Source: Flavobacteriales bacterium (GTDB lineage: Bacteria > Bacteroidota > Bacteroidia > Flavobacteriales_F > PHOS-HE28). Taken from it: a stretch of 64,000 nucleotides of DNA. Every line of letters starts with the position of its first letter. The first letter of the stretch is position 1. Below are positions 13,604 through 45,684 of this stretch, piece after piece. The stretch covers positions 1,187,964 through 1,251,963 of the forward strand of contig JAHCIA010000001.1 of the NCBI GenBank assembly GCA_026129465.1, written 5' to 3'. The notes under the pieces were generated by a model. The model ran no database searches. It was not told where the DNA came from and worked only from the letters and a program-made list of their open reading frames with translations. The translations under genes were made by a program, and so were the position numbers.

Positions 13604-13717
13604 TTAGTACTTGGTGCGCCAGCGTTGGCGGTTGCGCCACCACTTGCCGGACACCAGCCACCAAAGACCTTTGAGCAGGTCAAGAAGCATCCGGTGGCGT
13701 GGGTGCATGTAGCTCAT
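13604..13717 (-). CDS. Possible 37-residue Trp-rich peptide coupled to the restriction gene
   Basis: The ATG overlaps the stop of the restriction endonuclease gene (ATATGA), so ribosomes leaving that gene could restart here. The product is basic and Trp-rich, with segments MLLDLLKGLWWLV and KWWRNRQRW. It ends 4 bp from the convergent unknown gene. It is too short for confident calling; the precise stop-start overlap is the main support. Confidence 0.35.
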   Translation of the reverse strand: MSYMHPRHRMLLDLLKGLWWLVSGKWWRNRQRWRTKY

Positions 13718-14799
13718 ATGCCCTCGTCGAAGAATGCGGTCATCGCGGTTGCGAACCAGAATAATTGCTCCTGTGTGAAGTCCTCGCGTATCCAATCGGG
13801 TAGGGCATGGCGAGGGAACCGCAATCCTGCAAGGGCAGTAGCTAACTGTTGGAGCTTGATATTGATCTGCGTCTCCATGTCAGCCTCTTCGATGCTGTCC
13901 GCAAGCGCCTTGGCCAAGGCAAGCAGTATCTCCAAGTAGACGAAGTGCGCGGCACTTGGATTATCGGGCCTTCCGATGAAAGACCAGAAGTCCATACCAA
14001 CGCGCCGGTATATTCGTACGCTTCGGGTAGCGCTGTCGATTAATACTCCGGGCCGCTCAGCCCTGTTTTCTTCCTCGAACCCAGCGCTGAGCAACTTGAC
14101 GAGTATCTGGTTGTCCTTGTTGTTGGTCGTCTTGTCGGTTCCATAGGTCAGACCGACAACAACATCAATCCCGTTGACGCCTGGGTAATTGTTGCGTGTT
14201 TGTGCAAGCCATTGCGGGTGGTTGTCAACGATGGCGCGGGTCATGCCTTGCACCTGTGTGTCGTTGATGGTATTGGGGCCGCTCTTGATGGTCGTCAGAT
14301 AGCGCCGATCGCCGACAACGCAAGCCTTGTCTATTTCGCGCCAGACAGAATCCAGCCTTTGCTGGGCTCGTTCATCTCTCGACAATCCTGCATAGGAAGC
14401 GAACTCGGCAGTCTTCTCCGGGGCCTCAGCCCATCGGCTCTTTGAGCCAATCGGGTACTGCCCAACAAACGTTGCCTCAATCGACTTCCCGAAGGAAGTT
14501 TCCAACGCCATGTATGTCTTGCTGTTGAATAGGAACTCCGCGAACTTGGCCGGATCGCCCAGTTTCATGACACTTGCAGAGGTCAGCAACACGTATGGGT
14601 TGGTCCGATAGTCGGCCACGCCATTCCTTCTATTGAAGGCGGCTGGCATGTTCGTGACAATGTAGCTTGCCAACCCCTTCGCCAAGGCCAGCACTCGGTC
14701 CTCGTCCACCAGCTTGAAGCCCTCGACGATGCGCTTCGCATCAAACCTGTGCCTGCGCGATTTGAGCAGCGCAGAAAGCTCGTTGTTACGCTTCGCCAT
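13714..14799 (-). CDS. Probable type II restriction endonuclease
   Basis: A 361-residue protein directly after, and overlapping by TAATG, a C5-cytosine DNA methyltransferase; this is the classic arrangement of a type II restriction-modification pair. In the middle, RRYLTTIKSGPNTIND resembles the Lys-containing part of PD-(D/E)XK-type active sites in PmeII-like restriction enzymes. Several Asp residues upstream (DSVWREIDKACVVGDRR) could complete the metal site. The recognition sequence cannot be read. The family name is a judgement by eye; the role rests mainly on the methyltransferase neighbour and the motif. The pair lies on the minus strand, opposite to the cassette polarity of the array. 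Confidence 0.75.
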   Translation of the reverse strand: MAKRNNELSALLKSRRHRFDAKRIVEGFKLVDEDRVLALAKGLASYIVTNMPAAFNRRNGVADYRTNPYVLLTSASVMKLGDPAKFAEFLFNSKTYMALETSFGKSIEATFVGQYPIGSKSRWAEAPEKTAEFASYAGLSRDERAQQRLDSVWREIDKACVVGDRRYLTTIKSGPNTINDTQVQGMTRAIVDNHPQWLAQTRNNYPGVNGIDVVVGLTYGTDKTTNNKDNQILVKLLSAGFEEENRAERPGVLIDSATRSVRIYRRVGMDFWSFIGRPDNPSAAHFVYLEILLALAKALADSIEEADMETQINIKLQQLATALAGLRFPRHALPDWIREDFTQEQLFWFATAMTAFFDEGI

Positions 14800-16184
14800 T
14801 ACGCTACAAGCTCTTTCACCTTTCTCAAGGTCTGTGGTGGTTCATAGGTGCAGTCTCCATTCGTGTCTCCGTCTTCCCAGACCATGATCTTGCCGTCCTT
14901 GTACCACTGCCTTGTGCGCACATGGGACTGCACGTAGATGACCCGATAACCCTCTGGCTTTTTGTCTAGCGGTTTCCAATTGCGCCCAGCCAATTCATCA
15001 AGCTGTTTGGCGATAACACCACCAGCAACAAATCCCAATCGGGTTGGCACTGCGTTTCCAACTTGCTTGTACTGTTGGCTCGGGGTACCCGCGATCTTCC
15101 AATCTTCAGGAAACTCTTGGACGAGTACGTATTCCTTGATGGAGAGCGCCCTTGTTTCAACCGGGTGGCACAGAGAGGTTCCGGCGTGGTTTGGCATGGT
15201 CAAGAGCGTGGGGCATGGTAGGTCGAATGTCAGTCTTCTCCACCAACCTGAACGACCGCCCTTCGCAAACCAAGTTCGGCCCATGCTTTCCTTCTGCAAC
15301 TCTTCCGGTAGGCTTCGCCAGTTCGACCCTTCCGGCACCATTGAAAGGATTTGCTTCTTGCGCGGGCTGAAGTCCATGCCAACGGGGCCTGGTTCGGCAA
15401 GGTGTCCAATCGCATCTCGAAGTGTGCGCCAGGGTAGCAGGGGGTTGGGCTCTTCATCGAACAACCCCAATGGCCTCTTCTTCTGTTCGGCTACCGGCCC
15501 ATGCGTTGGGTCCGGGAAGTCAACGACCGCGTTGTACCTATTGCCGATGAACAGAGCGCGTTCCCGTATTTGCGGTGCGCCGTAGTTGACGGAGTTGACC
15601 TCGAATATGTCCATGTGATACCCAGCGGCAATGCGCTGCATGTCCTCGGCAAAGAGTCTTACGACCGAGCCGGGCATTTCGTCAATATCCAGCGGTGGAC
15701 CGCCCTTGTCCGGGCGCTGTGCTATTGGTCGATGCTTCAGTGCTGCCGACAACAAACCCCTGACGTTCTCCATCAGGAACATCTTGGGCTGCATCGCCTC
15801 GACAAAGCGAAGGAACTGCCAGATCAACGTTCCTCGCGCATCTTGCACAGACTGCCGTTTTCCCGCCGTACTGAACGCTTGGCATGGAGGTCCGCCCACA
15901 AGCACGTCGAGTTCACCCGGCTTGATTCCGCAATCCTTCATCACTTGGTACGGGTCAAGGTTCGTAATGTCACCTTCATAGACCCGCAAGTGGTCAGCAA
16001 GCCGCCCCTCTGCTTGGTTCAGGCGTATGGTATCACAAAAAGCCTTCTCCAGTTCGACACATGCCAACAGGTCGTAACGCCCTGTCTGTTCCATCCCAAG
16101 GTCCAAGCCCATGGCACCGCTGAAGAGCGAGATAGCCTTGTACTTCTTAGGAGCATTGCCCTTGGTCGTCTTAGTCTTTTTCAT
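14799..16184 (-). CDS. DNA (cytosine-5) methyltransferase
   Basis: A 461-residue m5C methyltransferase with the ordered family motifs. Motif I is ISLFSGAMGLDLG (SAM binding). Motif IV is GGPPCQAFS with the catalytic Cys. Motif VI is MENVRGL, and motif VIII is PQIRERALFIGN. A target-recognition region follows, and motifs IX/X include QVGNAVP. It protects host DNA from the downstream restriction enzyme, whose start it overlaps (TAATG). Upstream lies 213 bp of non-coding sequence and then attC-like site 1. The C-terminal 70 residues are an extension of unclear role. Confidence 0.95.
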   Translation of the reverse strand: MKKTKTTKGNAPKKYKAISLFSGAMGLDLGMEQTGRYDLLACVELEKAFCDTIRLNQAEGRLADHLRVYEGDITNLDPYQVMKDCGIKPGELDVLVGGPPCQAFSTAGKRQSVQDARGTLIWQFLRFVEAMQPKMFLMENVRGLLSAALKHRPIAQRPDKGGPPLDIDEMPGSVVRLFAEDMQRIAAGYHMDIFEVNSVNYGAPQIRERALFIGNRYNAVVDFPDPTHGPVAEQKKRPLGLFDEEPNPLLPWRTLRDAIGHLAEPGPVGMDFSPRKKQILSMVPEGSNWRSLPEELQKESMGRTWFAKGGRSGWWRRLTFDLPCPTLLTMPNHAGTSLCHPVETRALSIKEYVLVQEFPEDWKIAGTPSQQYKQVGNAVPTRLGFVAGGVIAKQLDELAGRNWKPLDKKPEGYRVIYVQSHVRTRQWYKDGKIMVWEDGDTNGDCTYEPPQTLRKVKELVA

Positions 16185-16305
16185 GGCTTACGGCGTTGCA
16201 AGTTACCGACCTACCTTCGACCGTCATTCACGATCGACCTGAGTTGCCAACAAACCCCTGAGCGCAATGGTGCCCACTGCGCTTAACATGGAGTGCCAAT
16301 GCGAA

Positions 16306-16323
16306 CAGCCGGGCCGGGTTCTG
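16306..16323 (+). repeat. Right arm of the 18-bp perfect inverted repeat
   Basis: CAGCCGGGCCGGGTTCTG, the reverse complement of 12639-12656. It sits in the non-coding stretch between the methyltransferase start and attC-like site 1. A smaller hairpin (AGCGCA...TGCGCT) lies just before it. Confidence 0.6.
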
Positions 16324-16397
16324 AGTCCCGCTTGTCCACTGACAGCAAGCCACTACCTTGCAGCAATGGGCGGGACGAATACGGAAGACGCGACGGC

Positions 16398-16460
16398 ACC
16401 CAACATCGGCTTGCCGCAATGCTCGTTCCTCGCACATGCGGCAAGCCTCATCCGTTGGTG
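16398..16460 (+). other. attC-like recombination site 1
   Basis: A 63-bp element. ACCCAAC (16398-16404) matches the R'' consensus RYYYAAC. A perfect 11-bp stem GGCTTGCCGCA (16408-16418) / TGCGGCAAGCC (16437-16447) follows, then GTTGGTG (16454-16460) as R'. Order, size and AAC...GTT polarity fit short integron attC sites. A terminator is less likely because no T run follows. Confidence 0.65.
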
Positions 16461-16488
16461 GCAAGTGTAATGACAACAGATACAAATA

Positions 16489-17598
16489 ATGATTAAGTAT
16501 CAATATGCAAAAGACGAGAATGAAAAGCTGATTGACATTGACAGCTTAAACGAAGAGAACAGAGTAAATTCTAAGTTCTTCTGCATAGGTTGTGGGAATG
16601 AGTTAATTGCTAGACTTGGAAAAATTAAGGTTCACCATTTTGCACATAAAAAAGTTGTAACCTGTTCAGGAGAAACATATCTGCATTTACTTGGAAAACA
16701 ACTGTTTTTTGATAATTATACCGATTGTTTGAATACAAATAGACCATTCACAATTGAGATATACCAAAAAAGAACTTGTAATCACTATGAAAAAGAACTT
16801 GGCTGAAAATGTAAACTACCAAAGGCTACGACTAAATTTGACCTAACGCAGTTCTTTGACAAGATTTCAGTAGAAACAAGAGAAGGTTCATTTATTGCAG
16901 ATATAATGCTCACAAGCAAAAACGGCAAGGAGAAAGTATTTGTAGAAATTGCTGTTACACACCTATCAACTGAACAAAAATTAAACTCTAATTATAGAAT
17001 TATTGAGTTAGAAATTGAAAACGAAGAAGACTTTGAACCAATAAAAAGAAAGTATTTAAGCGTAAACGACTCAAAAGTTAAATTCAAAAATTTCAAGACA
17101 AATGAAATAAATGCTTCGCTTTGCAATGGGAATTGCCAAATAGATTACAACTTTTTTACTCTTGACAAAGACGGAAGATGTTTATTAAAACAAAGAAACC
17201 TTAGGCAGATAAAAAATCAGTTAGTGACAGAGAAAGACAGGATTTTGAAGTATGAAATATCAAATGACATTGGACACAATTATCCAGATATTTTCAAAAA
17301 AGGAGTAGCAACTTTTTCACAACAGAATTTAAAGGTTAAAAACTGTTTTGTTTGTCGGTATCACGCAGAAAATAACTCTTGGCAATATTATGAAGATACG
17401 ATTGGTGTTCCAATTTTTTGTAAGTTTCTCAAAATAAAATGTAATTCAAACCAAGCAGTAAGTTGTGAATATTTCAAATTAGAGAAAAATTACGTTCAGA
17501 AAATCATAACGACAATTCAAGAATATGATTCAGAAATGGAACAATATTATAAGGAAATTGATGAAGCGGGAACTGTTGACGAAAATTGGGACGAATAA
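16489..17598 (+). pseudogene. CoiA-like nuclease family gene with one in-frame TGA
   Basis: One continuous reading frame of about 370 codons is interrupted only by TGA at 16804-16806; the frame resumes with KCKLPKATTKFDL and runs to the end without a shift. The N-terminal part has a zinc-finger-like FFCIGCGNEL and the KVHHFAHKK motif of competence protein CoiA-like proteins. After the stop come IADIMLTS and VFVEIAVTHLS, matching the nuclease-like core with acidic residues. A further Cys cluster (CFVCRYH) follows. CoiA-like proteins occur in competence and in mobile or defence islands. The gene is strikingly AT-rich, is bounded by attC-like sites 1 and 2, and looks like a cassette gene inactivated by a nonsense mutation; an internal restart at 16906 would give only the C-terminal 230 residues. 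Confidence 0.75.
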
Positions 17599-17610
17599 TA
17601 GAACACCAGC

Positions 17611-17742
17611 CACCAACAAGGGTTTTGCGTCAGGCGGGGTGACGTGTAAACTTGAAGTTTTGTGCTTCTATTCAAGTGCAGTGCTGGTTGACAGTTTTGT
17701 GCTCCGAAACCCGCCCGAACGCAAAGCCCGAAAACGTTGTCG
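17611..17742 (+). other. attC-like recombination site 2
   Basis: A 132-bp element starting 12 bp after the CoiA-like gene. CACCAAC (17611-17617) precedes a long imperfect stem: GGGTTTTGCGT-CAGGCGGG (17620-17638) pairs with CCCGCC-CGAACGCAAAGCCC (17710-17729). The R'-like heptamer GTTGTCG is at 17736-17742. The loop contains its own stem ACTTGAA/TTCAAGT. Same polarity as site 1. Confidence 0.65.
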
Positions 17743-17765
17743 CAAATTCCTATACCTGGCATTGA

Positions 17766-19073
17766 ATGAAGAGTAAACAGGAACTTAAGCGATATCTATC
17801 ATCAGAGATGGAGAGACTCGACTTCGCTAAGAAGTCAATAGAGGCCTATCAAATTTGGTTAGTAAAGCTGCAAGAACATTATCCCAGAAAGGACCTGAAG
17901 AAACTGTCATTCGAAGAGATCAAGGCCTTCATTGAACATCACATCAAAAAAGGGCGTGCATCGGCATCTGGAATTAACATAGCATGCCATGCAGTAGTAC
18001 TTCTTTATAACAGACTATGGGGGCATGACTATGATTTCACCGGTATAAACCGACCACAGTGTAAACGATTGCGAATCGAATCTCTTTCACAAGATGAGAT
18101 TATCAAGCTCATTGATTCGACAACAAATAGCAAACAAAAAGCTGTAATCGCCTTGACGTACTCATCCGGTCTTGACTTGGCTGAAGTAACTCATCTTAGA
18201 CTAACAGACGTTGACCTTATCAGAGACAATCTAAAAATTAGAGACAAGAACGGCAAACTGAAGAGGGTTTCTATACTTTCAAATCAAGCCAAAAATATCC
18301 TTAATGTTCATATCGAAGAGAATGAGCCGAGCAGGTATTTATTTGAAGGATATAAGCAAGGCTTCAAATACTCCGATCGGTCAGTTCAACGCATGTTCAA
18401 TCAAACGGCTGCACGCGCAGGTATAAAGAGAAAGCTAACATTCAAGGTTCTGAAGTACTCCTACATTGTACACCTCGAAGAGTTGGGGGTGCCACTTAGA
18501 ACAACACTTCACGAATTAGGCTTGAAGAGCTCCAACACATTAGACTTTTTCAGCGAAGCCATTGCCAAAGGGAATAACAAGGTATCCTTTAGCCCTCTTG
18601 ACAAGATTCTTCACGAACCCAAGCTTGAGTACCCCGTTAACTTGGCACATCTCGAAGAATCAATCCAGTTGGTGAATAGCAAAGATGAACGAGAATATCT
18701 GCAAGAATCATTGATTTGCATTAAATCAAATTCGCTACGGGCTGGAATCATATTCGCTTGGAATGCCGCAGTCGTGAACATCCGTAAAAAGTGCTTCTCA
18801 CACGGCAAAGTGACATTGACTCAAGCCATTCAGAAGCACTATGAAAAGGCACCAACCATTTCTAATCTTGATGACTTGGCCAACATAAAGGATAGTACTC
18901 TTATATTGGCATTCCAGGGTCTTGGTCATGTGGATAAAGGGGAAAAGGATGCACTCGTCGAGTGTTTAAACCTCAGAAACAAGTGTGGTCATCCAAGTCA
19001 ATATCGGCCGAAATCTTTCAAGGCGATGTCGTTCCTAGAAGAGTTGCTAACGATAGTATTCAATAAACAGTGA
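17766..19073 (+). CDS. Inactivated tyrosine recombinase fused to a HEPN-like RNase domain
   Basis: A 435-residue protein. Residues about 1-95 resemble the core-binding domain of tyrosine recombinases and about 105-265 the catalytic domain. It aligns by eye with the active recombinase at 11312 (shared YSxGL, LFEG, AxAGIxRKLT). The catalytic positions are lost: Arg becomes Asp137 (SSGLDLAEV), the His-x-x-Arg pair becomes Lys227/Lys230 (FKVLKYS), His becomes Leu253 (ELGLKSS) and Tyr becomes Phe262. Only the hairpin Lys seems kept. Residues about 295-435 are helical. They end in LRNKCGHPS, an Rx4H motif (Arg404, His409) typical of HEPN RNases, preceded by RAGIIFAWNAAVVNIRKK. I infer a DNA-binding dead recombinase joined to an RNase effector, sitting as a single-gene AT-rich cassette between attC-like sites 2 and 3. 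Confidence 0.8.
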   Translation: MKSKQELKRYLSSEMERLDFAKKSIEAYQIWLVKLQEHYPRKDLKKLSFEEIKAFIEHHIKKGRASASGINIACHAVVLLYNRLWGHDYDFTGINRPQCKRLRIESLSQDEIIKLIDSTTNSKQKAVIALTYSSGLDLAEVTHLRLTDVDLIRDNLKIRDKNGKLKRVSILSNQAKNILNVHIEENEPSRYLFEGYKQGFKYSDRSVQRMFNQTAARAGIKRKLTFKVLKYSYIVHLEELGVPLRTTLHELGLKSSNTLDFFSEAIAKGNNKVSFSPLDKILHEPKLEYPVNLAHLEESIQLVNSKDEREYLQESLICIKSNSLRAGIIFAWNAAVVNIRKKCFSHGKVTLTQAIQKHYEKAPTISNLDDLANIKDSTLILAFQGLGHVDKGEKDALVECLNLRNKCGHPSQYRPKSFKAMSFLEELLTIVFNKQ

Positions 19074-40485: not shown

Positions 40486-41154
40486 TCAGCCATGCGGATC
40501 ATCCTTCAACTTCTCAATGACCTTCTTCCTTGAACCCCACTTGACGACTTTGTGCAGCATGTAGGCGAAGGTGCTGTTCGTTCCGATGGTCACGGTAGAC
40601 TTCACCGTGGAGGACTTCCCCGCCTTGATCTTGATGTCGAAACCTTGCTGCGAGGCCGCGAATTCCACACGGCCTTCGGTCGTGACCTCCGTTGCGAATC
40701 GTCCTTCCATGGCCACCCAGATGGCACTTACCAAGCGGCCATCAGATCCGCTGGCCAACGAGGACAAGGCCTTGGGCGCATGGTCATTCACCGCATCCCG
40801 CAATTGATCGCGGTAGATGATGAACTTCATCAATACCAAATTGGCCATCGCGGCCGATGAATGACTCAGGTCCGCTTTGGCTCCATCTCCTTTGATATAC
40901 TTGACTGTACCGCTCAAAGCCAGATCCCCTTTGGCCACTTTGCTCCAATCAATGGCGATCGGTCCGTAAGTATGGATCTGCACGTTGTCCATCGCGGTCA
41001 CTGGAAGTTTGTTGCCTACATCGAGATAGGTGCCGTTGTTCATGCTTGATCGCTTGCTGCCATAGCAACCGAGCATGATATCCTCGGCCTTGCCGCGGTA
41101 GTAACCGACCCGGTTGTATTTGAAGGCATTGCCCTTGAACTTGTAATTGGACAT
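40486..41154 (-). CDS. Protein of unknown function, partner candidate of the KAP gene
   Basis: A 222-residue protein starting MSNYKFKGNAFKYNRVGYYRG. It is Lys/Ser-rich and beta-prone (TVKSTVTIGTNSTFAYM), with no signal peptide or membrane helix. A start at 41217 would add 21 poorly structured residues. It lies 145 bp downstream of the large KAP NTPase gene on the same strand and may be co-expressed with it. Its GC content is lower than that of the core genes around it. No homology is recognised. The two form an isolated accessory locus between ordinary genes. Confidence 0.65.
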   Translation of the reverse strand: MSNYKFKGNAFKYNRVGYYRGKAEDIMLGCYGSKRSSMNNGTYLDVGNKLPVTAMDNVQIHTYGPIAIDWSKVAKGDLALSGTVKYIKGDGAKADLSHSSAAMANLVLMKFIIYRDQLRDAVNDHAPKALSSLASGSDGRLVSAIWVAMEGRFATEVTTEGRVEFAASQQGFDIKIKAGKSSTVKSTVTIGTNSTFAYMLHKVVKWGSRKKVIEKLKDDPHG

Positions 41155-41299: not shown

Positions 41300-44146
41300 T
41301 CATCCCAGTAGCTTTCTGACCGACTCCACGGTCAGACCACCCGGAGGGTCGTCCTCCTCACGTATGGCACCTGCCACACGTTTCACCTCATCGTCCTCCA
41401 AAAGCGGCGCCATCCTCTCCGGCAGCTTGATGCCTGTAGCACCATGGAGCAGGTTCGTGGCTTCCGGCTCCTTGGTGATGTGCTCGGCCAGGGTCGGCCA
41501 GCGCAACTCGAGGATGGTCCATCGTGCAAGATCGTCAAGATCGCTGAAATTCTGCTGCAGGTCGCGCACAGCGAGATTCATGGCGAAAGCGTTCACCAGG
41601 CGTTTCATGGCACGGGGATTATGTTCCAGCAGATCGGCGAAGCGCATGAGGCGATGCTCCAATGCTTTCGCCTGGTCCGATTCGGTGGATCGCTCCACGA
41701 TCTTTTCAGCGATCACCTGCCGTTTGGCAGGATCGTCGGTGCGCTTGCCCAACTCACGCAACTCCTCATTTGACGGAAGCTTGGCGATCTCTTCCAACAC
41801 CTCGGACCGTGCGGTCTGAGTGTTCAATGGTGTTCTTTCATCGGGCCGCTCGCTGCTATCCAACAGTTGTCTCAAGAACCGATCGCGTGCCGCACCCGGC
41901 ACTCTCGGCAACTCCGCGGAGATCTGGAACATCTTCTCCAGGAAGAGGTGTCCCAAGGGCCTACCGGGTACGCCGATGACCGGGCCGAAGGTGGTGTAGT
42001 GCTGCTCGAAGCTGGTACAGATCCACTGCTTGTCCGCTGCCACTAGGAAAGTGACGGGCGTATCCCGGAAAAGGGTCTGAACCCCTTCGAGCAGTTCCAC
42101 CACATAGGGTTGGTCGCAGCGGTCCAGGTCATCGATGTAGATGATGACCGGCCGACGCATGAAGTGGATGATCCGATCGAAGAGCTTGACCACGGGACGC
42201 ATCACATCGGACCGCATGTCAGCAAGATGCTGCGCCGAGCGGGCATCCAGAAAGAAGGTACGACTCCATGCCACGAAACCGAGCAGGATCGTCAACACAC
42301 CGGAAATCGCCGCCCACCAATCCTTGTAGCCCTTGAACTTCCCCTCTGTAACGGACCCCATTGCGACCGAGGTGTCCTGCGCCCCCCCATTGGCTGTGCT
42401 CAAGAACAGTGCGATGGACAACGCCAGGAACACAATGGCCAGTCCCCAAGCCAGCAGGTCGGCCCGAAAACGGCGCAGGAACCAAGTGACCCCAAAGCGC
42501 TGACGTTCCGCCCAGGTAAGCTGTTTGCGGCCTTGCGAGGCGATCACATGGATCAACGACCACCAGGGTGGCTTCACCCGTTGATGCCGCCAGGCATTGA
42601 AGTCTACCACTACCCAGGCCCGACGGCGCATTGCACGCAATCGGTCTATGGCCGAGGCCCGCGAGAACATGTACCGTACTGCGCCATGCACACGCCATTT
42701 CCATCGCTGCCAACGAGACAGGTCATGGAGCACCACCCTTCGCCGTCTACGGTCCGCCTTCCACCCCCAATGGGTCAATTCGTCTTTCAAGAAGTTGAGC
42801 ACGGACGATTTTCCAGAACCCCATGGGCCGTGCAGATGCACCATGAAAGCGTAGCTGTCGCCGGCGCCTTCAATATCGTCGGTACCTTGTATCAGCCCAC
42901 GCGCCTGCCGGATGCGCTGGGCCAGCAGCTGGGCGAAGGCTTTCCGGCCCAGGTGGTCCACCTTGGCGGCATCGTCGTGGTGGGTGCGGGTGGTTTCGCG
43001 GAGGGTCTTCTCTTGGACACCCTCTGTTCCCATATGCGGAAATTCACGCGGATCGCTCAAGTCGATATCACCCCGATGGTCTTCGAACAACTCGAATGAG
43101 CCGACTACGGCGGCTTCATTTCCTACCATGTGCAATAACCCTGATGCGGTCAGGGGTCCAGGGTTTCGCTCCGTCCAATTCAAGCCCTTGATGACAGCCT
43201 TGACGAACGCACTCGGGCCATTGGCTTCAGAATTTCTCTCATCCGGAGGAGCTGAAACCCCAGCGATTATCGACCATGGAACCTCGCGCGGAGACAGGTA
43301 CACATCGTCCTTGATATCATAAGACACACTTTGAGTTGACACAAGGTCCAGGATACATGTGACCGACAACACCGAAGCGAACAGGGATACTTGGGATACC
43401 AGGACATGGGGAGCAACACCAAGCGGTTCATCAGTCAACAAGCGCGCTACAAAACGCCCCGATTGGTTCTCGATCCCGTAACCAGAATAGAACAGGATCA
43501 CATGCACACCTTGGCCGTCCTTCAAGGGTGCGCTATTCGGGAAAAGAACTTCCCTCCTGAATCGATCCATACTGAACCCATCTGCTTCATCGATCCGTGA
43601 AATGACCGTCTCGATGTTCAGTAATGCTCCGGCCAGCGCTTCACGAAACGCCATGGCACCTGCACTGGCCGTTCTCAGCACAGGATGCCCCCGGTGTCTT
43701 GTGGATCCGATCACGATCGCGATCCGCTTGGACGCGACGTCTTCGGTGGCCGACCCTTGACCACCTTCACCCCGTGTTGCTCGCGCCCCATCGAGTGCAG
43801 CAGCCTCTGATAGGCCAGCTGCATCCGCAGCCTTGGATCGCACCCGTTTCTTGGCCCTGACCTCCATTGTCCTATCAACTTCCTCAACCTTCTCCACCGT
43901 CAAATACCTCCCATCCACCCAACCATTGAGGGTGTTCTTCCCGTCATGGGCCGCGATCAAGGCCCAATCGCCGTCTTTGGACCGCTCAAGCACACTGACC
44001 ACTGCACCGTTATCTAGTTTCCCAATGACCGGATGCTTGGGTCCAGGCCCTTCGCGCATGTTCAGGACACTCGCGGTAACACGATATGCTTTGTCGCGAT
44101 CTGGAACGGACCTGCTAGTTTCCCCCATCTCGGGCGCGTTGGCCAT
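41300..44146 (-). CDS. SH3 / inactivated caspase-like / KAP P-loop NTPase protein
   Basis: A 948-residue multidomain protein. Residues about 20-84 form a bacterial SH3 domain (VLNMREGPGPKHPVIGKL, GWVDGRYL). About 140-325 is a caspase-like (C14) fold beginning KRIAIVIGSTRHRG. Its His position is Tyr223 (FYSGYG instead of YSGHG) and its Cys position is Val269 (CILDLVS instead of ILDxC), so protease activity is not expected. From about 420 comes a KAP NTPase: Walker A GPWGSGKSS (440-448), two membrane helices inserted near 567-584 and 610-629, Walker B IIYIDDLDRCD (668-678), then NPRAMKRLVNAF. KAP proteins include the phage-exclusion protein PifA, so defence is plausible but inferred. ATG 44146 was chosen over 44194. 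Confidence 0.85.
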   Translation of the reverse strand: MANAPEMGETSRSVPDRDKAYRVTASVLNMREGPGPKHPVIGKLDNGAVVSVLERSKDGDWALIAAHDGKNTLNGWVDGRYLTVEKVEEVDRTMEVRAKKRVRSKAADAAGLSEAAALDGARATRGEGGQGSATEDVASKRIAIVIGSTRHRGHPVLRTASAGAMAFREALAGALLNIETVISRIDEADGFSMDRFRREVLFPNSAPLKDGQGVHVILFYSGYGIENQSGRFVARLLTDEPLGVAPHVLVSQVSLFASVLSVTCILDLVSTQSVSYDIKDDVYLSPREVPWSIIAGVSAPPDERNSEANGPSAFVKAVIKGLNWTERNPGPLTASGLLHMVGNEAAVVGSFELFEDHRGDIDLSDPREFPHMGTEGVQEKTLRETTRTHHDDAAKVDHLGRKAFAQLLAQRIRQARGLIQGTDDIEGAGDSYAFMVHLHGPWGSGKSSVLNFLKDELTHWGWKADRRRRRVVLHDLSRWQRWKWRVHGAVRYMFSRASAIDRLRAMRRRAWVVVDFNAWRHQRVKPPWWSLIHVIASQGRKQLTWAERQRFGVTWFLRRFRADLLAWGLAIVFLALSIALFLSTANGGAQDTSVAMGSVTEGKFKGYKDWWAAISGVLTILLGFVAWSRTFFLDARSAQHLADMRSDVMRPVVKLFDRIIHFMRRPVIIYIDDLDRCDQPYVVELLEGVQTLFRDTPVTFLVAADKQWICTSFEQHYTTFGPVIGVPGRPLGHLFLEKMFQISAELPRVPGAARDRFLRQLLDSSERPDERTPLNTQTARSEVLEEIAKLPSNEELRELGKRTDDPAKRQVIAEKIVERSTESDQAKALEHRLMRFADLLEHNPRAMKRLVNAFAMNLAVRDLQQNFSDLDDLARWTILELRWPTLAEHITKEPEATNLLHGATGIKLPERMAPLLEDDEVKRVAGAIREEDDPPGGLTVESVRKLLG

Positions 44147-44314: not shown

Positions 44315-45046
44315 ATGCTCCTATCCGCTCCACTGCTGCTGACCGCGCTGACGCTGGGCCTGGCCTTGCTGGCCGCCCTGGCATGGCGGCTGCGCCACTG
44401 GCGGCGGCGCGCGGCACAGGCCGATGCCGGATCGCAGCTGTTGCGCCTGATGCTCCACACCGAGCGGGAGGACCGCCAGGCGGAGATGCGTGGCCTGTGC
44501 CATGCATTGCGCAATGACCTGGGCCAACTGCTGGCCGCCGCCCAACTGGATGTGCGGCGGACCGTGACCGCGTCAGGGGATCGCGGCCTGCTGGCCGTGG
44601 CGCGCGAGGCCCTGGCCGGCGGTGTGGAAGAGGTGCGCGCACTGGGGCGATGGGCCGAAGGCGCCGCGGAGGGCCGCGTATCCCTGGCAGCGGAACTCAG
44701 GCGCCTGGCACGTGCGATGCCCGGCGTCGCGCTGGAGCTGTTGGAGACCGGCCGTGCAGACCCCCTGGAGCGCGACACCTGCACCGTGCTGCGCGCAGCG
44801 ATCGCCGAGGTGCTCATGCGGTCGGCGCGCAACGGCGACCAAACTGCCTTCGCCTGCTACATCAAGCACCGTGCGGATGGTGCGCACATCACCCTCCGTC
44901 ATGGCGCGCACCACATGACGAACGACATGGACCGGGACGGACTTCCTTCCTTGCTTGCCTGTCACTGCGCGCTGGTGGGCTATGCGTTGGAGCACCACTG
45001 CGGCAGTGCCACCATGACCTGGACCCTGCGACCCCTGCGGACATGA
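44315..45046 (+). CDS. Atypical sensor histidine kinase-like protein
   Basis: A 243-residue protein with one N-terminal membrane helix (LLLTALTLGLALLAALAW). A dimerisation/phosphoacceptor helix follows, containing CHALRNDLGQLLAAAQLDV with its His. A candidate N-box (AIAEVLMRSARNG) is present, but the glycine-rich G1/G2 ATP-binding boxes of HATPase domains are missing; the C-terminus reads instead HHMTNDMDRDGLPSLLAC. It may bind ATP poorly or act as a scaffold. The stop overlaps the start of the response regulator (ATGA), so the two function together. Confidence 0.7.
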   Translation: MLLSAPLLLTALTLGLALLAALAWRLRHWRRRAAQADAGSQLLRLMLHTEREDRQAEMRGLCHALRNDLGQLLAAAQLDVRRTVTASGDRGLLAVAREALAGGVEEVRALGRWAEGAAEGRVSLAAELRRLARAMPGVALELLETGRADPLERDTCTVLRAAIAEVLMRSARNGDQTAFACYIKHRADGAHITLRHGAHHMTNDMDRDGLPSLLACHCALVGYALEHHCGSATMTWTLRPLRT

Positions 45047-45684
45047 AGCACCACGTGGCCTTGGTGGACGACCACCACCTGTTGCGCGGCGGACTGGGTT
45101 CCGTGGTGAACCGGCTGGGCGGCTATCAGGTGACCCTGGAGGCCGGGCACGGCAAGGAGTTCATCGAACTGCTGCGCGACGCGGAACCGCCTGCGATCGC
45201 CATTGTGGACCTGAACATGCCGGTGATGGACGGCTACGCCACGCTGCATTGGCTGCGCGCCAACCGGCCGGAGATCCGCCCGCTGGTGCTCACCTTCGAC
45301 GCCGACGACGATGCCATGGCGCGCGCGGTACGTGCCGGCGCCCGCGGCTTCCTCCTGAAGGATGTGAGTCCCGCCATGCTGAAGGCCGCGCTGGACGGCA
45401 TCATGCGCGACGGCTACCACCTGCCGGAGGAGGCGCTGCTGGCCGCCGATGGCCACGGCGGCCGTCGGCACGGGGATCTGATGGCGCGCATCAGTAAGCG
45501 CGAACTGGAGTTCCTGTTGCACATCTGTTCCGATGAGGAGCCGACCTACGAGCAGGTGGCCAAGGCCATGGGCGTGAGCCGCAGCACGGTGGACAAGTTC
45601 CGCGAGCACCTCTTCGAGAAGCTCGGCGTGAAGAGCAAGACCGGCCTGGTGATGCTGGCCATGCGCATGGGGCTGGTGCGCTGA
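45043..45684 (+). CDS. Response regulator, receiver plus HTH
   Basis: A 213-residue protein with a complete receiver: acidic VDDHH near residue 8, phosphoacceptor Asp in IVDLNMPVMDGY, and the Lys of FLLKDVSP. The C-terminal helix-turn-helix (ISKRELEFLLHICSDEEPTYEQVAKAMGVSRSTVDKFREH is the region) is a LuxR variant in which GVSRSTVDKFRE is the recognition helix. It overlaps the kinase-like gene upstream. The MacB-type export operon follows after 88 bp with its own promoter and could be a target. Confidence 0.9.
   Translation: MKHHVALVDDHHLLRGGLGSVVNRLGGYQVTLEAGHGKEFIELLRDAEPPAIAIVDLNMPVMDGYATLHWLRANRPEIRPLVLTFDADDDAMARAVRAGARGFLLKDVSPAMLKAALDGIMRDGYHLPEEALLAADGHGGRRHGDLMARISKRELEFLLHICSDEEPTYEQVAKAMGVSRSTVDKFREHLFEKLGVKSKTGLVMLAMRMGLVR

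Follow-up and report, generated by a model that had tools for sequence, protein, structure and literature searches.

A KAP NTPase Joined to an SH3 Domain and a Caspase-Like Domain Lacking the His–Cys Pair in a Flavobacteriales Bacterium

A single gene in the window (the whole 64,000-nucleotide stretch of DNA analyzed here) encodes a protein that joins an SH3 domain, a caspase-like domain that has lost its protease chemistry, and a KAP NTPase domain interrupted by membrane helices (Table 1). Because the parts of this protein are mostly met in bacterial anti-virus systems, we consider it probably an anti-virus sensor or switch; in its specific form, to which we assign a probability of about 0.5, this reading describes a membrane-anchored, ATP-driven anti-invader NTPase switch that would use the dead caspase as a binding platform. 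The open reading frame runs from an ATG without an internal stop, and a whole-protein Pfam scan matches SH3_3 and KAP_NTPase and not the caspase; the same resource finds no EAD in the protein. A preliminary description of this DNA had proposed all three domains in a "giant protein"; the SH3 assignment holds, whereas 948 residues are too few for that label.

Table 1. Coordinates of the features of the locus in the window, with residue numbers of the encoded protein and the basis of each assignment
Feature	Residues	Position	Strand	Basis
SH3 / pseudo-caspase / KAP-TM protein (predicted)	948 aa	41300–44146	(-)	
SH3_3 domain	26–82	43901–44071	(-)	Pfam E 1.6e-13
Catalytically dead caspase domain	about 138–340	43127–43735	(-)	hhalign, direct caspase matches, MALT1/caspase fold match
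Tyr223 codon (catalytic His position)	223	43478–43480	(-)	Alignment to caspases
Val269 codon (catalytic Cys position)	269	43340–43342	(-)	Alignment to caspases
KAP NTPase domain	433–855	41582–42850	(-)	Pfam E 8.7e-32; invariant motifs in alignment
Walker A, GPWGSGKSS	440–448	42803–42829	(-)	Motif reading and alignment
Basic/aromatic insert	about 468–506	42629–42745	(-)	Alignment to relatives
Membrane helix 1	562–585	42392–42463	(-)	Hydropathy and AF2 helix
Membrane helix 2	606–631	42254–42331	(-)	AF2 helix
Walker B region (IDDLDRC, 671–677)	667–677	42116–42148	(-)	Motif reading and alignment
PRAMKR motif	844–849	41600–41617	(-)	Common to KAP relatives
Downstream orphan ORF, possible start at 41154	243 aa	40486–41217	(-)	82 bp after KAP gene, same strand
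Divergent neighbor, likely histidine kinase fragment		44315–45046	(+)	tblastn similarity to genes beside response regulators in congeners; no Pfam match
LuxR-type response regulator		45043–45684	(+)	Similar genes in 22/44 congeneric genomes

The KAP region scores 111 bits with KAP_NTPase (PF07693; gathering cut-off 20), and the Walker A, FNAW, DDLDRC, and PRAMKR motifs are conserved over the 15 relatives aligned, with G443, G445, K446, D672, and D673 invariant. Between FNAW and Walker B lie two inserted helices, in agreement with the intact, helix-bearing KAP ATPase proposed beforehand; membrane helices within the P-loop domain are a trait of a major subset of KAP NTPases. About 38 residues of basic and aromatic character, between 468 and 506, occur in no close aligned relative. 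By padloc the KAP part is QatA/PifA-like, with only parts of those models matched, and its 59.7 bits miss the QatA equivalog cut-off of 600. Among solved structures, RdrA of RADAR matches the full-length AF2 model best (Foldseek E 1.4e-4; global TM-score only 0.18), which, as far as the model indicates, is a distant NTPase resemblance only. This model was built with no N-terminal relatives in the alignment, has pLDDT values below 50 across the SH3 and caspase regions, and is uninformative there.

The caspase domain is flagged by none of the libraries. Scanned alone, the middle part of the protein reaches 13 bits with Peptidase_C14 (E 0.084), under the curated Pfam cut-off of 21.4, and the phmmer match to human MALT1 is weak (E 0.26–0.7). 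Scored with a nine-caspase profile, the protein outranks 1000 shuffles and about 1700 non-caspase ORFs, yet at an E of only 0.05. Weak as they are, these matches each lean toward a caspase. Profile–profile comparison carries the assignment. Aligned by hhalign to 34 bacterial caspase domains, which were picked by the Pfam model from genomes of the same class, the domain matches over 193 columns across p20 and p10 with a probability of 91.6% (P 8e-7) and a score of 46.7, as compared to a best of 21.4 among 200 shuffles and of 24.5 among 76 segments of unrelated real proteins; after two further relatives were added, the probability is 95.1% (P 3e-8). A CHAT profile does not match the middle domain. 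Because the hhalign score lies far above both sets of controls, we judge from these alignments that the caspase domain is real and more than chance. An AF2 model of residues 132 to 375 (pLDDT 67.5, pTM 0.70) resembles MALT1, metacaspases, and caspases, with a best Foldseek E of 7e-5 and Z up to 12.9 (MALT1); caspase rows in its alignment bias this model toward a caspase, and the fold match is support and not proof. The caspase-like fold anticipated for this region is borne out by the profile comparison together with the predicted structure.

The His–Cys pair of Peptidase C14 is absent from this domain. Tyr223, within FYSGYG (residues 219–224), falls in a column that is His in 36 of 36 caspases aligned, and Val269, within LDLVS (residues 266–270), falls in a column that is Cys in 33 of 35 caspases and Ala in the remaining two, which places the two substitutions named in the preliminary description exactly on the catalytic columns. 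Because both catalytic residues are replaced, the domain cannot, by established caspase chemistry, act as a protease, and we assign it by alignment as a pseudo-caspase that has lost its protease chemistry, a reading supported by the profile comparison and the fold. The dead domain still has Asp267, ahead of the Cys position, and, in p10, SAF...GL. On a tree of caspases, the domain is not firmly placed, and its branch is very long, at 3.82 changes per column; a position inside the immune-caspase clade is neither favored nor rejected (p-AU 0.18).

Residues 132 to 385 were searched alone against 395 genomes, which yielded three non-self matches, two of them intact caspases (L160, E 3.9e-4 per genome; L162, E 0.0098). 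The L160 operon harbors, by padloc and Pfam, a response regulator, the caspase, a CD-NTase (PDLC00791, E 1e-156), a SAVED effector, and a DruE-like helicase, and the L162 operon matches it in kind, SAVED effector included. The nearest detectable relatives of the domain are, by these searches, intact caspases of CBASS-like operons; this immune habitat is shown, as are the parts of the protein and its dead dyad. On the question of whether homologues keep the His–Cys pair, these nearest relatives do, but the full architecture itself is found in only one of 45 congeneric genomes. L160 and L162 form one clade with L026 and L118 (support 100/99), and the L026 and L118 caspases adjoin ThsB-TIR genes.

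Other caspases were encountered in the same material. Two operons (L163, 6808–16307; L164, 505–9151) contain a response regulator, an intact caspase, a SAVED effector, and a DruE-like helicase, and L163 has a CD-NTase besides; judged by gene content both are CBASS-like systems with a caspase, for which two-component control is possible. Intact small caspases lie beside ThsB-TIR genes at L165 (6346–8187) and L166 (4193–5987), an arrangement resembling type IV Thoeris, in which, as the account of Rousset 2025 given in PMC12847820 has it, the TIR makes a product that turns on a caspase-like protease. A TPR-caspase present in about 20 congeneric genomes (L027–L049) keeps GHG but carries Ala in place of the Cys (VSDAAG), and represents a second kind of dead caspase; it was not found in the genome of the window (G000) at the threshold used. 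This genome has no intact C14 caspase over the cut-off and does have a CHAT protease.

The window gene is surrounded by the orphan, the likely histidine kinase and response regulator, and ribosomal S1-like, ispH-like, and ABC transporter genes, names that, response regulator excepted, were read from sequence. A partner gene had been placed at 40486–41154; the ORF is confirmed, but it extends to 41217, and 41154 is only a possible later ATG. This orphan has no relative in 45 congeneric genomes, plasmids, viral contigs, Pfam, PHROGs, NCBIfam, or padloc. The histidine kinase fragment is probably outside the system, and the response regulator is not specific to the KAP locus because similar genes occur widely among congeners (Table 1). 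Third-position GC of the window gene is 0.66 versus mostly 0.8 to 0.9 nearby, which suggests acquisition. The proposal of an isolated insertion between core genes is only partly supported, by this low value and by a patchy distribution; an empty site is not demonstrable because the flanking genes lack synteny in 20 congeneric genomes and response-regulator neighborhoods vary. No defense gene adjoins the window gene, the nearest being a type II restriction-modification system (13.7–16.2 kb) about 25 kb off; the neighborhood evidence for defense comes from relatives, some of which lie in CBASS-like operons or beside restriction genes. The restriction-modification genes, an EcoO109I-like type II endonuclease and a C5 DNA methyltransferase, share a low-GC island (13714–19073) with a phage-type integrase (17766–19073), about 22 to 30 kb from the KAP gene.

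Within the genus, only one of 45 genomes, that of the window, has the complete SH3–pseudo-caspase–KAP architecture. The congeneric genome G015 has a KAP gene that is 38% identical over 574 residues and is preceded by a separate 344-residue gene with a weak SH3 match (E 0.003); the pair is probably a split version of the SH3 plus KAP architecture. The caspase score of this counterpart is 22.3, barely over the shuffle maximum of 20.0, and after the SH3 it reads FIYAAGP where caspases show YSGHG. The G015 operon (L014, 4210–11949) encodes a papain-family protease, the SH3-domain protein, the KAP NTPase, a patatin-like membrane protein (its patatin match is below the Pfam cut-off), and small exported proteins. 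Outside of the genus, in the phylum and in Acidobacteria, the KAP part alone is matched and the N-termini are others, including pentapeptide-type repeats in acidobacterial proteins L005–L007 EAD11 in L084, and unknown domains. The KAP relative L096 adjoins HsdS, HsdM, and HsdR of type I restriction. Family f25 KAPs (five genomes; L016–L020) have an unknown N-terminal domain and a conserved MBL-fold, nadA, nadC, and iscS-like neighborhood, and the G081 KAP gene is flanked by GAPDH and a methionine-synthase-like gene; neighbor names at these loci, GAPDH excepted, were assigned by reading the sequence. KAP homologues occur with EAD11 or beside restriction genes (L084, L096) as well as in metabolic surroundings (f25, G081), and not in housekeeping contexts only. 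The phages and viral contigs searched contain no copy of the main protein. Two further candidates were rejected: a pseudo-CHAT domain seen by eye in the KAP relative L086 (SGD..., NFPHSE) scores no better than shuffles with CHAT and caspase profiles, and the N-terminal domains of L016–L020 give no signal as caspases.

Several known systems share individual features with the window protein. Like the KAP NTPases PifA and QatA (PF07693), it has Walker A, FNAW, DDLDRC, PRxxKR, and inserted membrane helices; it differs in matching them only partially, in lacking qatBCD genes, its neighbors being the orphan and the histidine kinase and response regulator genes, and in its extra SH3 and caspase domains, and we do not class it as a Qat system. 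Pseudo-orthocaspases, with YS, YA, FS, HA, and other dyads (PMC6426788), likewise combine a p20-type domain with a Tyr in place of the His, whereas the window domain has Val at the Cys position, is fused to SH3 and KAP domains, and is far more diverged, under the Pfam cut-off. Immune caspases of type IV Thoeris, CBASS-like, and Canu systems, as far as the accounts in PMC12847820 (citing Rousset 2025) and PMC12799240 describe them, have the caspase fold in common with the window domain, and CanA of Canu has a reported MALT1-like fold (PMC12799240), like our model; the window domain is, however, without the catalytic pair, and its locus is without a TIR, cyclase, SAVED, or nuclease partner (no TIR or CD-NTase/SAVED gene was found there, and ORF 40486–41217 matches no family). 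EAD and STAND-KAP conflict systems (PMC7159879, PMC8195603) also combine an NTPase core with swappable, often inactive N-terminal modules; at the window locus, a search for a partner of the EAD, Death-like, vWA, or MoxR kind found none, and the protein itself has no EAD, whereas its relative L084 carries EAD11. Likewise, RADAR provides the top solved match of the full-length model, but no RdrB deaminase is nearby. In VMAP-type MoxR-vWA systems, about 70% of effector-position caspase domains are inactive (PMC7159879), and in EAD/bDLD3 systems KAP can take the place of a STAND NTPase (PMC8195603). We found no description of a KAP–caspase fusion in the open literature, which was the extent of that search. 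Since dead caspases and KAP-for-STAND replacement are already published (PMC7159879, PMC8195603), the protein is a new combination, in one chain, within a known kind.

For the NTPase switch we infer sensing, oligomerization, membrane action, and a defense role along the following lines. With no signal peptide seen, the N-terminal arm of SH3 and dead caspase would be cytosolic and may act as the sensor; the dead caspase may retain its cleft, and its ligand could be a peptide, a protease partner, or a phage factor targeting true caspases. Binding would free the KAP domain for ATP hydrolysis and oligomerization at the membrane, and the activated KAP could then perturb the membrane or recruit an effector, such that the infected cell is stopped. 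The orphan protein may, as a guess, be a target or modulator. An immune role is indirectly supported by the CBASS-like caspase kin, the EAD11 and restriction-associated KAP kin, and the papain/patatin operon of G015, and the intact KAP motifs and membrane helices, the caspase fold with its replaced catalytic pair in an unbroken ORF, the ThsB-TIR neighbors of the clade-mates L026 and L118, the QatA/PifA likeness, the RdrA match, and the literature on dead caspases and KAP-for-STAND swaps also count for the switch. Against it count the lack of an adjacent defense gene, the caspase-tree position that is not firm, the absence of papain and patatin genes from the window locus, and a nearly unique architecture, which precludes a conservation test of function. 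The metabolic surroundings of the f25 and G081 KAPs fit instead a cellular, nonimmune membrane protein, in which KAP organizes or remodels membrane complexes and the SH3 and dead caspase are protein-binding modules. The absence of an adjoining defense gene and the common TPR-caspase of the genus, a dead caspase outside obvious defense loci, point the same way, but the patchy occurrence (2 of 45 congeneric genomes, one split), the low third-position GC, and the relatives with EAD11 or beside restriction genes argue against it, and we regard this explanation as rather unlikely.

The very long branch, the padloc similarity to PifA and QatA, and the weaker still G015 counterpart would be consistent with a simple phage-exclusion KAP protein whose caspase remnant is a passive, decaying linker; that the domain still shows p20 and p10 elements, Asp267, and SAF...GL over 193 columns makes this improbable. 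Dead enzyme copies have been proposed as decoys in conflict systems (PMC7159879), and the kinship with caspases of CBASS-like operons would suit a guard in which the dead caspase mimics intact immune caspases, a phage inhibitor binds it, and the KAP module is triggered; with zero C14 matches over the cut-off and a CHAT protease present in its own genome, however, there is nothing obvious to guard, and we hold this to be the least likely of the explanations. Within the NTPase switch, a more specific and speculative version, itself doubtful, would have a formerly immune caspase act as receptor and regulator for a membrane KAP NTPase, with a second messenger or peptide in the old cleft leading to membrane attack by a c-FLIP-like logic. 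Should the domain be such a receptor, bacteria would have their own equivalent of c-FLIP-type pseudo-caspases, here linked to a membrane NTPase, and the locus offers a compact two-gene construct for asking whether protease-dead caspase domains sense infection.
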